A stretch of DNA of 39,260 bases from the IMG/VR virus record IMGVR_UViG_3300023118_000005, positions 1 to 39,260 of that record; one strand, written 5' to 3'. The position numbers and the translations under genes are program-made. Below the pieces are notes generated by a model. It did no database searches. It was not told the DNA's origin and worked only from the letters and a program-made list of their open reading frames with translations. This DNA is from a virus. This document shows positions 4,934 to 34,615 of this stretch, one piece after another (the stretch's first letter is position 1; each line of letters opens with the position of its first letter).

Positions 4934-5085
4934 TACTTTATCTCAATTAGTTCACAAACTTTATTATCAATCAATTCTTTACAACGATCCAAAGAAACTG
5001 TATGTTCTTCAGTACGCATTATTAACCTATCCAATTGAATATCGTAGTATTTCATTATGCATTTAACTAAAGCAGTTTTTTCCAT
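4933..5085 (-). CDS. Small hypothetical protein between glycosyltransferase and terminase (50 aa)
   Basis: A 50-residue frame starting MEKTALVKCIMKYYD and ending VCELIEIK. It begins inside the last codons of the glycosyltransferase gene (19 bp overlap), and its stop shares a base with the small terminase ATG (TAATG). This tight packing at both ends supports a real, coupled gene. It looks like a helical protein and could be a terminase-associated factor. Function unknown. Confidence 0.6.
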   Translation of the reverse strand: MEKTALVKCIMKYYDIQLDRLIMRTEEHTVSLDRCKELIDNKVCELIEIK

Positions 5086-5981
5086 TGTTTGAATCCTGAT
5101 TTATGTTTGTGAGTGAATACTTTTTTTACTAACATTTCTGGTGTGAAATCTGATAGGTCTTTTTTAATTATGTAACCATTCGTTTCTTTTATCATTTCCG
5201 ATGCACTCGAATAATTTGTTGTAATTACCGTTGTGCCTAAAACTAACGCTTCTAATAAAACAAAACCGAACGCCTCGTAATCTGATAGCTGTAATAAAAA
5301 ATCAGCGTTCTTAATGTACGGGAATGGATTTTCTAATTTACCGTGAAATACCCAATTGCTCGGAGATTGTTTTTTTATATGCTTTTCATACTTCTTATCA
5401 TAACCTGATCCAACAATATGCCAAATGTAATCAATATCTTTTAATTGTTCAGAAACCTTTAACATTCTTTCAAAACCTTTCTCTCTTGAAATTCTTGAAA
5501 CTGTTACAAGTGTTAGTGGTTTACGTTCTGGAATATGTTCGTTTGCTAGTTCGTATATTTGTGAATTAAGCTCATTGTAAATTAATGTTGATTTCTGGTC
5601 CGTAAGCTGAGCGTCTAATTGTTCTTTACAAACTTGCCCCACTGCAATATAATTATCAATTTTTTCTTTTGGCAGTTTAACCTTCATATCCGTAAGACAA
5701 CCATGGAGCCAACGTAATTCTTTGTTGGCTTTTATTTTATCCTTCTTACAATAAATAGAGCAGTAAATAACCGTGTCAACTTCAATTGATTTGTATTCTA
5801 AATTAACTATTGAAGCATATTCAGCCATTCTTAAAAGCATTTCTATACTTGAATCTTTAGCTGAATAAGCTATTGTAATATCGTAGTGTTCGTGTAATCG
5901 TTCGCATAGATTTAATATAGCAACCTCCACGCCTCCAATAATATTGATATGATGATAATAAAAACAAATACTTTTTTTCAT
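5067..5981 (-). CDS. GT4-family glycosyltransferase (304 aa)
   Basis: A GT-B fold retaining glycosyltransferase, expected to move a sugar from a nucleotide donor to a surface glycan, protein or other acceptor in the cytoplasm. Evidence: the N-terminal loop HHINIIGGVE (10-19), the linker strand VTVSRISREKGFERML (159-174) and the donor-site EX7E motif EAFGFVLLE (Glu236 to Glu244). The ATG at 5981 (MKKSICFYY) is preferred over an upstream start at 6017, because the extra 12 residues would cover the promoter. Such enzymes are unusual between early genes and terminase. The gene has its own promoter and follows a terminator, so it looks like an independently expressed cargo gene. Possible targets are host surface sugar (superinfection exclusion) or virion proteins. 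Confidence 0.85.
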   Translation of the reverse strand: MKKSICFYYHHINIIGGVEVAILNLCERLHEHYDITIAYSAKDSSIEMLLRMAEYASIVNLEYKSIEVDTVIYCSIYCKKDKIKANKELRWLHGCLTDMKVKLPKEKIDNYIAVGQVCKEQLDAQLTDQKSTLIYNELNSQIYELANEHIPERKPLTLVTVSRISREKGFERMLKVSEQLKDIDYIWHIVGSGYDKKYEKHIKKQSPSNWVFHGKLENPFPYIKNADFLLQLSDYEAFGFVLLEALVLGTTVITTNYSSASEMIKETNGYIIKKDLSDFTPEMLVKKVFTHKHKSGFKQWKKLL

Positions 5982-5986
5982 ATGTG

Positions 5987-6017
5987 TAAATATAATAAAT
6001 CCAATCGTAAAAAGCAA
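5987..6017 (-). promoter_or_regulatory. Promoter of the glycosyltransferase gene
   Basis: On the minus strand TTG (complement of 6015-6017), 20 bases, then TATATTTA (complement of 5987-5994). This is one base away from the Bacteroidota -7 consensus TAnnTTTG. The ATG at 5981 begins 5 bases after the box, so the message may be almost leaderless. The promoter sits in the T-tail of the preceding terminator. Confidence 0.55.
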
Positions 6018-9146: not shown

Positions 9147-9555
9147 CGAAATTAAACTTCAATTGTTCTGACAAGTTTTTAGTAAATTCTTTGAACTTAA
9201 TAGCGTCAAAATTATAATTAACTATATCGCAAATCACTAATGCAAATTCGTCTTGATTGTACAAGGCTTTTAAAAATCCATCTGAATCATTTTTTTCTTT
9301 GTATTTATCTAATGTTTTAAAAAAAGCATCATGTACTTCTCTTTTTTCTAATCTAATAGTAAAATCTACATCGTAATTTTTATATTCATCCTGTAGATCA
9401 TCCATAAAAGTTTCTAAGCAATCACAATAAAGAAGTTCTGCAAGTTTTTTAGATCCTAATTTTTCGCAAAATAAAAATATAGTTGCAATACTTAATTTAT
9501 CCTCTAAGTTTAAAACTCCTCTTGTCGTGTCGTATATTATTTCTTCTATTTTCAT
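9139..9555 (-). CDS. Hypothetical acidic helical protein (138 aa)
   Basis: A 138-residue protein with an acidic, helix-forming composition, start MKIEEIIYDTTRGVLNLED and end EQLKFNFDA. It carries a Cys cluster (YCDCLETF near residue 44). It follows the methyltransferase after 38 bp and is probably in the same transcript. No domain was recognised. An accessory to the methyltransferase or an anti-restriction role is conceivable from position only. Confidence 0.6.
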   Translation of the reverse strand: MKIEEIIYDTTRGVLNLEDKLSIATIFLFCEKLGSKKLAELLYCDCLETFMDDLQDEYKNYDVDFTIRLEKREVHDAFFKTLDKYKEKNDSDGFLKALYNQDEFALVICDIVNYNFDAIKFKEFTKNLSEQLKFNFDA

Positions 9556-9593: not shown

Positions 9594-10484
9594 TTAAATA
9601 AAAGATAGTATGTGTGCAATTACATCAACTGTCCATCCGTTGCCTAGCATTTTATACCTCTGAGTATTAGATACTGATTCTGTGTAATTATCCGGAACCG
9701 TTTGAAGTCTCTCGCATTCAATAGGGGATAGTTTCCTTGCGTATTCTCCATCGCTTACTAATAATCCTAATTTCTTTCTTTGCATCATAGACTTTGCGTT
9801 CTCTTTGTAAATAGTACTTAGTATGCATTGACTTTTATCTTTAAAAACAAGTTGTCTTCTTGCTTTTTCAAAGTACTGTTTAAAATTTCCTCCTTTGAAA
9901 TAGTTTGCATCGATGCAGTATGATTTTTCCCTGTCCACAAAACCATCTTCTATAATTGAAGATAATAAAACGCTTTTATCTTCAGGGACACAAACTCCTT
10001 CTATATTTGTCCAGTACAATCTTTCTCTATTTTGAGCAGAAAGCAGAGAAGAGTTTATTCTTATCGGTTCAACTCCTGTGAATTTAGAAATAACATCTTC
10101 ATACTCTTTTTTCATTTTTACATTTTCCAAAATAAACTTAACGTCTGCATTTATAAACTCCTGTATAAATCTAAGGTCTGCCGCGAACTCAAAAAATAAT
10201 CTGCTTCGCGGATCACTAAAGTTTAATTGTTTTCCTGCAAACGAAAAACCCTGGCATGGACTTCCTCCTATTAATAAATGAATCTTAGGCAGATATTTAA
10301 TTTTTATTTTAGTAACATCACCTAATTGCTTTGTATTTGGAAAATTTTTATTTGTAACTTGAATTGCATATTTATCCACTTCAGATGCAAAGTAATTTGT
10401 TACATTTTTATTTAGTTTGCTTAATGCAATTTGACCACAGCTCATTCCGTCAAACTCTGCTAGTACATTATATTCTTCTTTCAT
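9594..10484 (-). CDS. C5-cytosine DNA methyltransferase (296 aa)
   Basis: Transfers a methyl group from SAM to carbon 5 of cytosine in DNA. Canonical motifs in order: motif I FDGMSCGQ (11-18), motif IV GGSPCQGFSFAG (73-84, catalytic Cys77), motif VI ENV (120-122), motif VIII QNRERLYW (151-158), motif IX-like RKLSPIECERLQ and motif X MLGNGWTVDVI near the C-terminus. The short target-recognition region and the FDGMSCGQIAL start recall the DNMT3-like phage enzymes. No restriction endonuclease is adjacent, so this is an orphan enzyme, probably protecting phage DNA from host restriction. It sits at the downstream end of the replication operon. Confidence 0.95.
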   Translation of the reverse strand: MKEEYNVLAEFDGMSCGQIALSKLNKNVTNYFASEVDKYAIQVTNKNFPNTKQLGDVTKIKIKYLPKIHLLIGGSPCQGFSFAGKQLNFSDPRSRLFFEFAADLRFIQEFINADVKFILENVKMKKEYEDVISKFTGVEPIRINSSLLSAQNRERLYWTNIEGVCVPEDKSVLLSSIIEDGFVDREKSYCIDANYFKGGNFKQYFEKARRQLVFKDKSQCILSTIYKENAKSMMQRKKLGLLVSDGEYARKLSPIECERLQTVPDNYTESVSNTQRYKMLGNGWTVDVIAHILSFI

Positions 10485-28849: not shown

Positions 28850-30245
28850 CTGGATCAATTTTTTCTGGACTGCCTAAAAGCGCATCTGCAACCTCTTTAG
28901 TAAATCCGTAAATTTCTGTAAATATTGTCATAGCACTATTATAATCTGTCAACCCTTGTGAAAAAGATGCTTGAACTTGCAAAACCCCTGTTACACCTCC
29001 AACAGATCCGCGTAAATTTGCTTGAGCTTCTTTCGTTGCATCGTCAACAACCACCTCTTGAACACCTTCAACTAATTCTTTTATTGATATATCAACAATT
29101 GGAATAATTTTACACGGAAAGCCTAAATAGGTTAGTGTATCTTCAATCTCTTTTCGTTCGTCTTGCGTTTGCTCAGTATAAAACTTCTTCATTTCTAAAT
29201 AAGTTTCTGACTGAGTTCCGAAAATTGATGATTCTGCCTTTACAAGTTGAGCAGGAATGTTGTTTGCCTGAGAGTAAATATTATCTCTTAAAGTCGTTTT
29301 AGTTTCTGAAAATAATTTATCGTCATATTCAGCTTTTACTTGCCCTACCTTAAACACTTTTTCAACTTCTGCTCCGGCTTCTAATGCTAAGTGATACGTT
29401 CCCCCTATGTTTTCAGATCCTAGCCATTTTGCAATATCTTCATCAGTTTTTTTAACATCTTCTTCGTCTAGTCCCGCAGTAATAACATAAGTTTTACCTA
29501 AGAATCCTGTTCGCACATTTCTATTGGTAAACATTGAAACTCTATACTCACTATCAAGGTCGTTATAACAAGCATCAAATGGAGAAAGCGCATATTTAAA
29601 TTCGGGTGTTAGGTTCATGTAGTAAACCTGACCACGATAATAAGGTAACATAACGGCTAAATCAACTTCAAGTTCTTTCGGCTCAGTTGCTAAATAATCA
29701 GCCTTTATTTGCGCTAAAATTACGTCAGGATTATTATCAAATGGATAGTACCATTCGCCTGTATCTGTTTTTGTAGATTTACCAAAACCTTTCTTTTCAA
29801 TAGAACAATCTTTTAGCCAATACTTTGAAATATAATCATTATCATCTTCTTTTCCTATTCTTGACTTTGTGTATTCTAAAATATCAATCGTAGGTTTTAG
29901 AACCGCATTTTCTAGTGTTTGCCCAATATGAAAGAACGTACCGTTTTGTCTTGAAACATCAACTGCCGACATTCTAACAATCTTAGAAAGTTTATAGTTT
30001 TTATCTGGATTAACGATTATATCATTTTCAACTCCTTTACCTGAAATGTATTTAGCAAAAACCTTAGATGCTGATTTACCGGAGGGGCTGTTTAAAATAG
30101 CTAATTCAATCTCGTTTGGATAAAGATTGTTTTCGCCATTGTAATAAATAGATTCGTCCTTGGTATCTGCCAATGGAATGAACCTACGGTAAAGCTCAAT
30201 GAATTTAGCTCTGTATTTGCCAACTGGTATTTTAGGTAAATCCAT
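28824..30245 (-). CDS. Portal protein (473 aa)
   Basis: The dodecameric ring through which DNA enters and leaves the head. The 473 residues are typical. The start MDLPKIPVGKYRAKFIELYRR is followed by ENNLYPNEIELAILNSPSGK, a core region with LYPN and KYISGKG as in many Bacteroidota phage portals, and a helical C-terminal part. Identification rests on length, position among the head genes and family-like segments rather than on a definitive motif. It shares a base with the upstream 191-residue gene. Confidence 0.8.
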   Translation of the reverse strand: MDLPKIPVGKYRAKFIELYRRFIPLADTKDESIYYNGENNLYPNEIELAILNSPSGKSASKVFAKYISGKGVENDIIVNPDKNYKLSKIVRMSAVDVSRQNGTFFHIGQTLENAVLKPTIDILEYTKSRIGKEDDNDYISKYWLKDCSIEKKGFGKSTKTDTGEWYYPFDNNPDVILAQIKADYLATEPKELEVDLAVMLPYYRGQVYYMNLTPEFKYALSPFDACYNDLDSEYRVSMFTNRNVRTGFLGKTYVITAGLDEEDVKKTDEDIAKWLGSENIGGTYHLALEAGAEVEKVFKVGQVKAEYDDKLFSETKTTLRDNIYSQANNIPAQLVKAESSIFGTQSETYLEMKKFYTEQTQDERKEIEDTLTYLGFPCKIIPIVDISIKELVEGVQEVVVDDATKEAQANLRGSVGGVTGVLQVQASFSQGLTDYNSAMTIFTEIYGFTKEVADALLGSPEKIDPDESTTTTI

Positions 30246-33683: not shown

Positions 33684-33685
33684 AT

Positions 33686-33715
33686 TTGGTCAATTTAAAA
33701 ACATTACTATCTTTG
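33686..33715 (+). promoter_or_regulatory. Near-consensus plus-strand promoter
   Basis: TTG (33686-33688), exactly 19 bases, then TATCTTTG (33708-33715): a full match to the Bacteroidota consensus. It is the only good plus-strand promoter found. Start of transcription would be near 33719-33722, directly at the first stem of the structured leader. Confidence 0.85.
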
Positions 33716-33718
33716 TTG

Positions 33719-33779
33719 CTCGCTACAACTAAAAAATATATTAAAACGTCATTCTTTGTAGCGAGGGGTGGCGTTTTTT
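33719..33779 (+). ncRNA. Structured leader or small RNA with interlocking stems and terminator-like end
   Basis: Stem 1: CTCGCTACAA (33719-33728) pairs perfectly over 10 bp with TTGTAGCGAG (33756-33765). Stem 2: AAAACGTC (33743-33750) pairs with GGCGTTTT (33770-33777), with one G-U pair, and is followed by T6. Stem 2's left arm lies in the loop of stem 1 and stem 1's right arm lies in the loop of stem 2: a pseudoknot or an either-or switch. The RNA would end near 33779 as a 60-base RNA, or read on into the membrane genes. Function unknown. Confidence 0.55.
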
Positions 33780-33797
33780 ATTTTAAATAATATCGTT

Positions 33798-34220
33798 ATG
33801 ACTACATTATTTTACATTTACACAATCTTCTTTGTTTTTTATGAACTTAATTGGATACTAAGTCCTGTAGAAAAAACAGAAGATGCAAGAAAGTTTTTTA
33901 AATTATCAAAAGAATTTAAAGGCAAAAAATGGGATGATTTTTCTCCTGAGTATAAATCTGAACTTAAAACAAAACTATGGCTATCTACTCTTTTACTATG
34001 GATGTTTATAGGGCTGTTTACTTTTCAATGGAGCGTATTTTTATTATTCATTACTTTTAACTTTTTAGTAATAGCACCATTATCAAAACTATTAAAGTTT
34101 TCTATCGCTTACACTATTTTGCATTGGGTTAATTCCGTAATTGGTTTTGCTTTTGGAATATTTGTTATTTTAAATCACTACCATTTACATATTGACATTA
34201 TTAAATACTTTAATTTATAA
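33798..34220 (+). CDS. Multi-pass membrane protein on the plus strand (140 aa)
   Basis: Start ATG at 33798 (MTTLFYIYTIFFVFYELNWI), rather than a GTG at 33768 that would read through the leader structure. The 140 residues have one N-terminal membrane segment, a polar stretch with charged helix (EKTEDARKFFKLSKEFKGKK), and two or three hydrophobic segments after residue 60. It is one of only two plus-strand genes. A role in superinfection exclusion or host-membrane change is plausible for an accessory membrane protein but not shown. Confidence 0.7.
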   Translation: MTTLFYIYTIFFVFYELNWILSPVEKTEDARKFFKLSKEFKGKKWDDFSPEYKSELKTKLWLSTLLLWMFIGLFTFQWSVFLLFITFNFLVIAPLSKLLKFSIAYTILHWVNSVIGFAFGIFVILNHYHLHIDIIKYFNL

Positions 34221-34222
34221 TT

Positions 34223-34351
34223 ATGGAAAATAAAGTAATATTTGTATGGAACATGAAGGACATAATAGGTATATCTATCTTAGTTATATTCGCATTATTT
34301 ATCTCAGTATTATTTTTTGTTGATTGGATTAAAAGAAAGTTTAAAAAATAA
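34223..34351 (+). CDS. Small single-pass membrane protein on the plus strand (42 aa)
   Basis: A 42-residue frame 2 bp after the previous stop. MENKVIFVWNMKDI is followed by a membrane helix (about 14-34, GISILVIFALFISVLFFV) and a basic tail DWIKRKFKK. The charge layout suggests N-terminus out, C-terminus in the cytoplasm. It is probably a partner of the 140-residue membrane protein. It ends just before the terminator. Confidence 0.65.
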   Translation: MENKVIFVWNMKDIIGISILVIFALFISVLFFVDWIKRKFKK

Positions 34352-34355
34352 AACA

Positions 34356-34382
34356 AAACCCTTAGTTATTAGCTAAGGGTTT
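34356..34382. terminator. Bidirectional terminator between convergent operons
   Basis: AAACCCTTAG (34356-34365) and CTAAGGGTTT (34373-34382) form a 10-bp stem with a 7-base loop. A T-rich tract follows on the plus strand, and GGGTTTTGTTTTATTTTTT is read on the minus strand. It ends the two plus-strand genes and the late tail operon; the minus operon's last stop codon lies in its stem. Confidence 0.85.
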
Positions 34383-34615
34383 ATATTTTTTTCCATGTCT
34401 ACAATTGCCCTACGAACTGTATTAACTGATATTTTAAAATGTCTACTTACAATATCGTATTTCTTCATCTGAGCCGATTCGTAATCAATAGATTTATAAA
34501 ATAAATAAATATCGTAATCCGTCATAATCGATAAAGGCATACGTCCAATCTTTACGAATGTTTGCACAATCTTAATATTTGAACTTATATAATTTGCTAC
34601 TTTCATTCGCTCCAA
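34373..34615 (-). CDS. HTH-type regulatory protein, last gene of the tail operon (80 aa)
   Basis: An 80-residue protein whose C-terminal half, MKKYDIVSRHFKISVNTVRRAI, is a clear helix-turn-helix. The N-terminal half is helical (NIKIVQTFVKIGRMPLS). A DNA-binding protein after the tail genes could regulate late expression or act as an anti-host factor. It overlaps the zinc-ribbon gene by 13 bp. An ATG at codon 4 is an alternative start. Confidence 0.7.
   Translation of the reverse strand: MERMKVANYISSNIKIVQTFVKIGRMPLSIMTDYDIYLFYKSIDYESAQMKKYDIVSRHFKISVNTVRRAIVDMEKNINP

Follow-up and report, generated by a model that had tools for sequence, protein, structure and literature searches.

We identified a family of leader RNAs of about 60 bases, apparently unnamed and uncatalogued, which occurs in phages of Bacteroidota-type bacteria before small, variable genes. 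The structured RNA is real beyond reasonable doubt, because dozens of relatives show coordinated changes at its paired positions. The most likely reading is that of a portable cis-acting attenuator leader, and we give the attenuator mechanism a probability of about one in two.

Anatomy of the leader in the window

The window is the whole stretch of DNA analyzed, the 39,260 nucleotides of the virus record IMGVR_UViG_3300023118_000005, whose relatives are found among Flavobacterium phages. The leader, the first helix of which is called P1, lies with its promoter in an intergenic region that has a minus-strand head-maturation-protease-like gene on one side and a plus-strand small membrane gene on the other. 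The features are as follows.

33685..33688, plus strand: -33 element TTTG, 19 nt from the -7 box
33708..33715, plus strand: -7 box TATCTTTG, of the TAnnTTTG type of the Bacteroidota primary sigma factor, 3-nt spacer to P1
33719..33728, plus strand: P1 5' arm CTCGCTACAA, pairs with 33756-33765 (10/10 Watson-Crick)
33729..33742, plus strand: L1, A/T-rich linker, 9-14 nt long across 42 relatives
33743..33751, plus strand: P2 5' arm AAAACGTCA, pairs with 33769-33777 (9 bp, one G.U)
33752..33754, plus strand: P3 5' arm TTC, pairs with GGG at 33766-33768 and extends P2 inwards
33755..33765, plus strand: apical loop of 11 nt, in which 33756-33765 (TTGTAGCGAG) is the P1 3' arm
33766..33768, plus strand: P3 3' arm GGG, pairs with TTC at 33752-33754
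33769..33777, plus strand: P2 3' arm TGGCGTTTT, pairs with 33743-33751
33774..33784, plus strand: U-tract TTTTTTATTTT, after the second helix
33798..34220, plus strand: cassette gene 1, a 140-aa membrane protein
34223..34351, plus strand: cassette gene 2, a 42-aa protein with a single hydrophobic segment
34356..34382, both strands: bidirectional terminator-like hairpin AAACCCTTAG...CTAAGGGTTT, which closes the cassette and separates the plus-strand membrane genes from minus-strand genes

Along the plus strand, the locus thus reads TTTG - 19 nt - TATCTTTG - 3 nt - CTCGCTACAA - 14 nt - AAAACGTCATTC - T - TTGTAGCGAG - GGGTGGCGTTTT - TTATTTT..., with the ATG at 33798. The P1-arm pattern with the promoter end occurred once within the window. 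Folding of the hairpin gave -17.2 kcal/mol (z = -3.5), a value that 1 of 200 shuffled sequences reached. A sequence-only reading of this DNA had proposed two interlocking stems, the second of them a terminator. The interlocked (ABAB, pseudoknot) order was confirmed by the paired arms at 33719-33777 and by the recurrence of the anatomy, well above any chance level, in 59 other phage sequences, and the second stem is indeed a terminator-like, G+C-containing hairpin directly followed by the U-tract. That reading had missed P3, with which the second helix comprises 12 bp, and the P1 3' arm is the apical loop of this helix. A classical terminator/antiterminator with overlapping arms, the other geometry that had been suggested, is not supported, because the P1 3' arm fills the apical loop and not the P2 or P3 arms.

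The promoter of the leader agrees with the Bacteroidota consensus and was not listed by a sigma-70-type scan. In F. psychrophilum, TAnnTTTG sits at -12 to -5 (PMC9723704). From this placement, the transcript start is predicted at 33720 (+/-2), nucleotide 2 of P1, which is one base from the 33719 proposed earlier, so that the RNA would begin no more than one or two bases from the first stem.

The 140-aa protein has a homologue with 64% identity in Flavobacterium phage hattifnatt9-1, where the gene lacks a window-type leader, indicating that the membrane gene and the leader are separable. The leader was also absent from locus L002, which carries a homologue of the membrane gene. Adjoining the cassette, 34373-34615 on the minus strand encodes an 80-aa ORF that by eye resembles a winged-helix DNA-binding protein and had no PHROG match. 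Elsewhere on the minus strand, 9594-10484 and 5067-6017 encode DNA cytosine methyltransferase-like and glycosyltransferase-like proteins, respectively, as judged from their translations alone.

Collection of relatives

An exact scan of IMG/VR for the P1 arms yielded nine loci, among which L004, L007, and L010 had the whole anatomy but a different second stem. Loci were then fetched by homology to the terminase and the neighbouring protein of these three, blind to the RNA; many of them carried the element after the terminase gene, including the P1 variants CTCACCAC/GTGGTGAG and TTCGCTAC/GTAGCGAG. Two relaxed scans and a descriptor script gave 60 elements with 42 distinct cores, the window included, in uncultivated phage contigs (class I), and several further elements were recovered by using a covariance model. 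In reversed-sequence controls, the stricter descriptor produced 0 matches in 0.43 Mb, and the looser one produced 30 matches in 1.85 Mb against 60 true and 6 chance matches.

The sampling of class I leaned on the P1 sequence and the sequences are related, so that the conservation of P1 is partly ascertained. A P1-agnostic scan for AAGCCCC-type P2 helices revealed that all true elements had GTAGCGAG, the remainder being ordinary terminators. Because this P1-blind scan gave only GTAGCGAG, and a geometric scan of whole contigs found one class I element per contig, pure ascertainment of the P1 conservation appears improbable. Each of 49 whole records contained exactly one strong copy (54-80 bits), the next best score (32 bits) being the antisense of the same element.

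An exact-P1 scan of GTDB contigs returned 14 matches, none with the promoter-loop-U-tract anatomy; it demanded CTCGCTACAA when most members have TTCGCTACAA, and it therefore says little about prophages. These matches were rejected as members; they resemble terminators next to tRNA genes and structured RNAs from other bacteria. In Erysipelotrichaceae/Bacillales MAGs (L013, L017, L018, L020, L022, and L025), an apparently unrelated CTCGCTACAA/TTGTAGCGAG inverted repeat follows a tRNA-like gene, with a T-rich stretch next, and in Patescibacteria-like MAGs (L014, L016, L019, L024, and L026) the CTCGCTACAA/TTGTAGCGAG arms lie inside a conserved structured RNA that may be RNase P RNA. Named phages and plasmids contained no real match to class I by BLASTN. 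Covariance-model matches of 21-30 bits in phages 11b, phiST, and FPSV-S2 were rejected because they looked by eye like terminators or coding sequence; only the match of the mumin/hattifnatt type survived.

Covariation and geometry

In the alignment of the 42 cores, 88.9% of the cells of P1 and P2/P3 were paired, compared with 75.9% after shuffling. Doubly changed cells numbered 135 against 40.9 in the shuffles, a count that none of 500 shuffles reached, and the covariation score was 0.438 against 0.174 for shuffled and at most 0.124 for slid controls. Each of the two interlocked helices was backed separately. All twelve pairs of P2/P3 were changed on both sides somewhere in the family, and in P1 exact compensations were present at two columns (G-C to A-U, and U-A to C-G in 10 sequences); the P1 compensation was first seen in the loci fetched through terminase homology and not through the P1 sequence. 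The inner positions of P3, a helix that was not used in the searches yielding the 42, were both paired in 40 of them (shuffle means, 23 and 28) and comprised eight standard pair types (CA/TG, CG/CG, TG/CA, TC/GG, AG/CT, GG/CC, GA/TC, and TA/TA). Compensatory changes in homologues, which the sequence-only reading had named as its own check, are hence present in both helices.

The geometry was similarly rigid. The box-to-P1 spacer was exactly 3 nt in all 42 distinct cores, for which the -7 box was a criterion of the class I descriptor (it was not one of the geometry scan), and of the 42 distinct relatives, approximately one third had an upstream TTG with 19-20 nt spacing (14 occurrences). In the loop, one nucleotide preceded the P1 arm in 41 of 42 and none followed it, and the starts of the two P1 arms were 33-40 nt apart. 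Across the family, the 8 nt after P2 contained 5.2 T on average, compared with 3.2 in the 8 nt beyond (P = 1.5e-7 in a paired test), and the first TTT lay at most 3 nt from P2 in 39 of 41 relatives; one relative had no TTT.

A wider class with other P1 sequences

The covariance model also matched three cultured Flavobacterium phages weakly, and the match proved to have the same architecture before an endonuclease gene (P1 GTCGTCG/CGACGAC; P3 CAAAG/CTTTTG; P2 CCACCAA/TTGGTGG). The identical variant sequence was found in 25 cultured Flavobacterium phage isolates from the Baltic collection (34 records with RefSeq copies); these phages are described in PMC7077304, the text of which does not mention the leader. 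A scan by geometry only yielded 44 matches at a score of at least 17, against 3 in reversed controls. A -7-type box stood just upstream of 8 of the 10 matches outside class I, against a background of 8%, although one of these eight (G002) lacks the look of the others and may be a chance match.

The geometry scan points to about ten putative leaders with the same architecture but other P1 sequences (class II). Their P1 sequences all differ (CGGTCAG, CCGCCAAG, CTCTTCAC, GTGGGG, AGTCGG, GTGGTAC, and others). The distance from the box to P1 is 6-17 nt in these leaders. Genes follow these leaders closely, several of them of early or replication type as judged from translations. Contig G020 carried three leaders with three different P1 sequences, namely two on the reverse strand at 30204 and 30574, in tandem before early-type genes, and a class I element at 9270 (-).

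Genes downstream of the leader

A same-strand ORF of at least 25 aa began 18-34 nt after the P1 arm in 57 of the 60 class I elements; two others had short ORFs there, and one was cut by the contig end. The distance from the end of P2 to the ATG was 7-22 nt in those relatives whose start could be seen. When genes were called on both strands of 30 contigs, the first downstream gene was co-oriented with the leader in every contig, including those in which the cassette lies against its neighbours. The elements occurred after the terminase, between tail genes, in early operons, or, as in the window, opposing the neighbouring genes.

The first downstream protein varied nearly every time and included HNH and GIY-YIG endonucleases, RNA ligase-like and ParB-like proteins, lipoproteins, small membrane proteins, and mostly unknowns. 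The first ORF after the element in L085 encodes a 100-aa protein starting MAKVGTIGNVDHGKTTL, with an EF-Tu-like P-loop stretch (Pfam GTP_EFTU, E = 1.1e-4). Because this gene differs in almost every phage and the set does not belong to one pathway, as the genes of a riboswitch would, the earlier suggestion of a riboswitch-like leader dedicated to the two membrane proteins was abandoned. No shared phage protein that might serve as a trans factor was universal among the 30 contigs, many of which are incomplete.

Proposed mechanism and alternatives

In the proposed attenuator, a host-type promoter would start the RNA at the P1 5' arm. The growing RNA would form the P2 hairpin, closed by P3, with an apical loop complementary to the transcript's own 5' segment; a pseudoknot with the 5' tail in the loop would result, and the hairpin would end in a U-tract, with the start codon of the accessory gene only a few bases further on. 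P2 and the U-tract would constitute a leaky intrinsic terminator and thereby restrict the amount of RNA that extends into the gene. P1, the arms of which are made first, may set the speed or quality of hairpin closure and so raise or lower the read-through. The computations establish the helices with their covariation, the rigid spacing, the U-tract, and the orientation and placement of the leader ahead of a gene; we infer transcription start, coexistence of P1 with P2/P3, termination, and any effect of P1. Attenuation is the simplest reading because the U-tract comes right after P2 with the ATG close behind. P1 and P2/P3 probably coexist, as their arms do not overlap and their geometry is compatible, and such coexistence fits better than a classical antiterminator because the pairing of P1 with the loop does not occupy the stem arms. 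Against a terminator, P2 and the T-run are separated by 2-3 nt (AAC) in several relatives, which is poor for termination, and one relative lacks a TTT. Against the pseudoknot, the minimum-energy fold of six of six sequences was the hairpin alone without P1, computed by a program that cannot form pseudoknots.

The main rival to the attenuator is a leader controlling translation or stability, in which the pseudoknot governs ribosome access or shields the mRNA 5' end (which in class I would lie where P1 meets P3), without attenuation of transcription; we consider this possible but not likely. Flavobacteria use initiation signals other than Shine-Dalgarno (PMC9723704), which is consistent with such control, as is the end of P2 at 7-22 nt before the ATG, and the U-richness could instead aid translation initiation. 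The start predicted at P1 nucleotide 2 and the fixed 3-nt spacing to the box in class I also fit this reading, and the T4 gene 32 leader is a precedent for translational control by a pseudoknot. However, P1 of class II lies 6-17 nt after the box, leaving the 5' end unburied, and this reading does not explain the position of the U-tract right after P2. An inverted-repeat operator that acts as DNA downstream of the promoter, without any role for RNA, would account for P1 as a conserved inverted repeat; its probability is negligible, because the varying arm spacing does not keep the helical phase, P2/P3 covary, and P1 position 1 is most often a U.G pair (34 of 42).

A small phage RNA of about 60 bases had been offered as the other possibility by the sequence-only reading. 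In this rival, an RNA of approximately 60-65 nt would end at the U-tract and act in trans, with the downstream gene incidental. Its own promoter, the terminator-like end, the single class I copy per phage, the strongly conserved P1 sequence, and the varied downstream genes are all compatible with this. Such an RNA would leave the orientation and distance of its neighbour unconstrained, yet the neighbour is co-oriented in 30 of 30 contigs, its ATG stands 18-34 nt away in 57 of 60, and class II leaders likewise lie close before genes. Orientation and ATG spacing thus favour a cis-acting leader over a short RNA, and we regard the latter as unlikely. A two-state switch controlled by a metabolite or a protein, in which P1 excludes the fully closed hairpin, seems slightly more doubtful still. 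A loop pairing of the UUUG/CGAG type that competes with P1 is possible in all 42 class I sequences, and the energies are close: the hairpin alone averages -17.0 kcal/mol, and the open-loop hairpin with the P1 duplex -22.1 before the pseudoknot penalty. Nevertheless, P1 overlaps neither P2 nor P3, and the inner pairing was not seen by eye in class II loops; the unrelated downstream genes argue against a metabolite, and the lack of a protein family common to all 30 contigs argues against a protein.

As an extension of the attenuator reading, we suggest, with considerable reserve, that these are modular Bacteroidota-phage leaders whose terminator is gated by the 5' segment of the same transcript through apical-loop pairing, and that differing P1 sequences within one phage, such as the three of G020, would act as separate addresses through which each leader is controlled individually, for example, by antisense RNAs or by related phages in the same cell.

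Comparison with known systems and significance

Consistent with the earlier impression that the element belongs to no recognized family, no Rfam 15 family attained the gathering score when the window and 23 loci were searched, except for a tRNA in L129. The S15-Flavobacteria leader (RF03161) was rejected at 17.1 bits against a cut-off of 46.5; the displayed match covered the promoter and the A/T-rich stretch that precedes the ATG, outside the paired core. A word search of open-licence papers found no literature on such a leader in Bacteroidota phages.

Attenuator leaders with an intrinsic terminator similarly have a promoter, a short leader, and a hairpin with a U-tract followed by a start codon, and part of their hairpin pairs with a segment lying upstream of it. 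Here, in contrast, the partner of that segment is the apical loop rather than a stem arm, the downstream genes are unrelated, and no peptide, tRNA, or metabolite logic was seen. In phage T4, a pseudoknot in the 5' leader of gene 32 controls translation; the present leader resembles it as a phage 5' leader pseudoknot before a gene, but the T4 leader serves a single essential gene and its protein, whereas this one travels with many genes. H-type pseudoknot riboswitches (for example, preQ1-I and SAM-II) share the ABAB order of two helices and a compact 5' leader; unlike them, the present family has no Rfam match at the gathering score, a P2 free in sequence, and no metabolic genes. The window cassette also resembles phage morons, independent units with a promoter and a terminator between phage genes, in having its own promoter, small genes, and a terminator and in being inserted against the surrounding genes. 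It differs in the added structured leader, and only a minority of the relatives' contigs showed a terminator behind the first gene.

These findings describe structured leader RNAs that form a family, covary with unusual clarity, and belong to a host group with atypical expression signals. The leader marks where small, fast-changing phage genes have their promoters and start codons and is thus usable for finding accessory genes. The architecture, a terminator loop paired with the RNA's own start, constitutes a directly testable mechanism, and the presence of a variant in 25 cultured Flavobacterium phages opens it to laboratory study.
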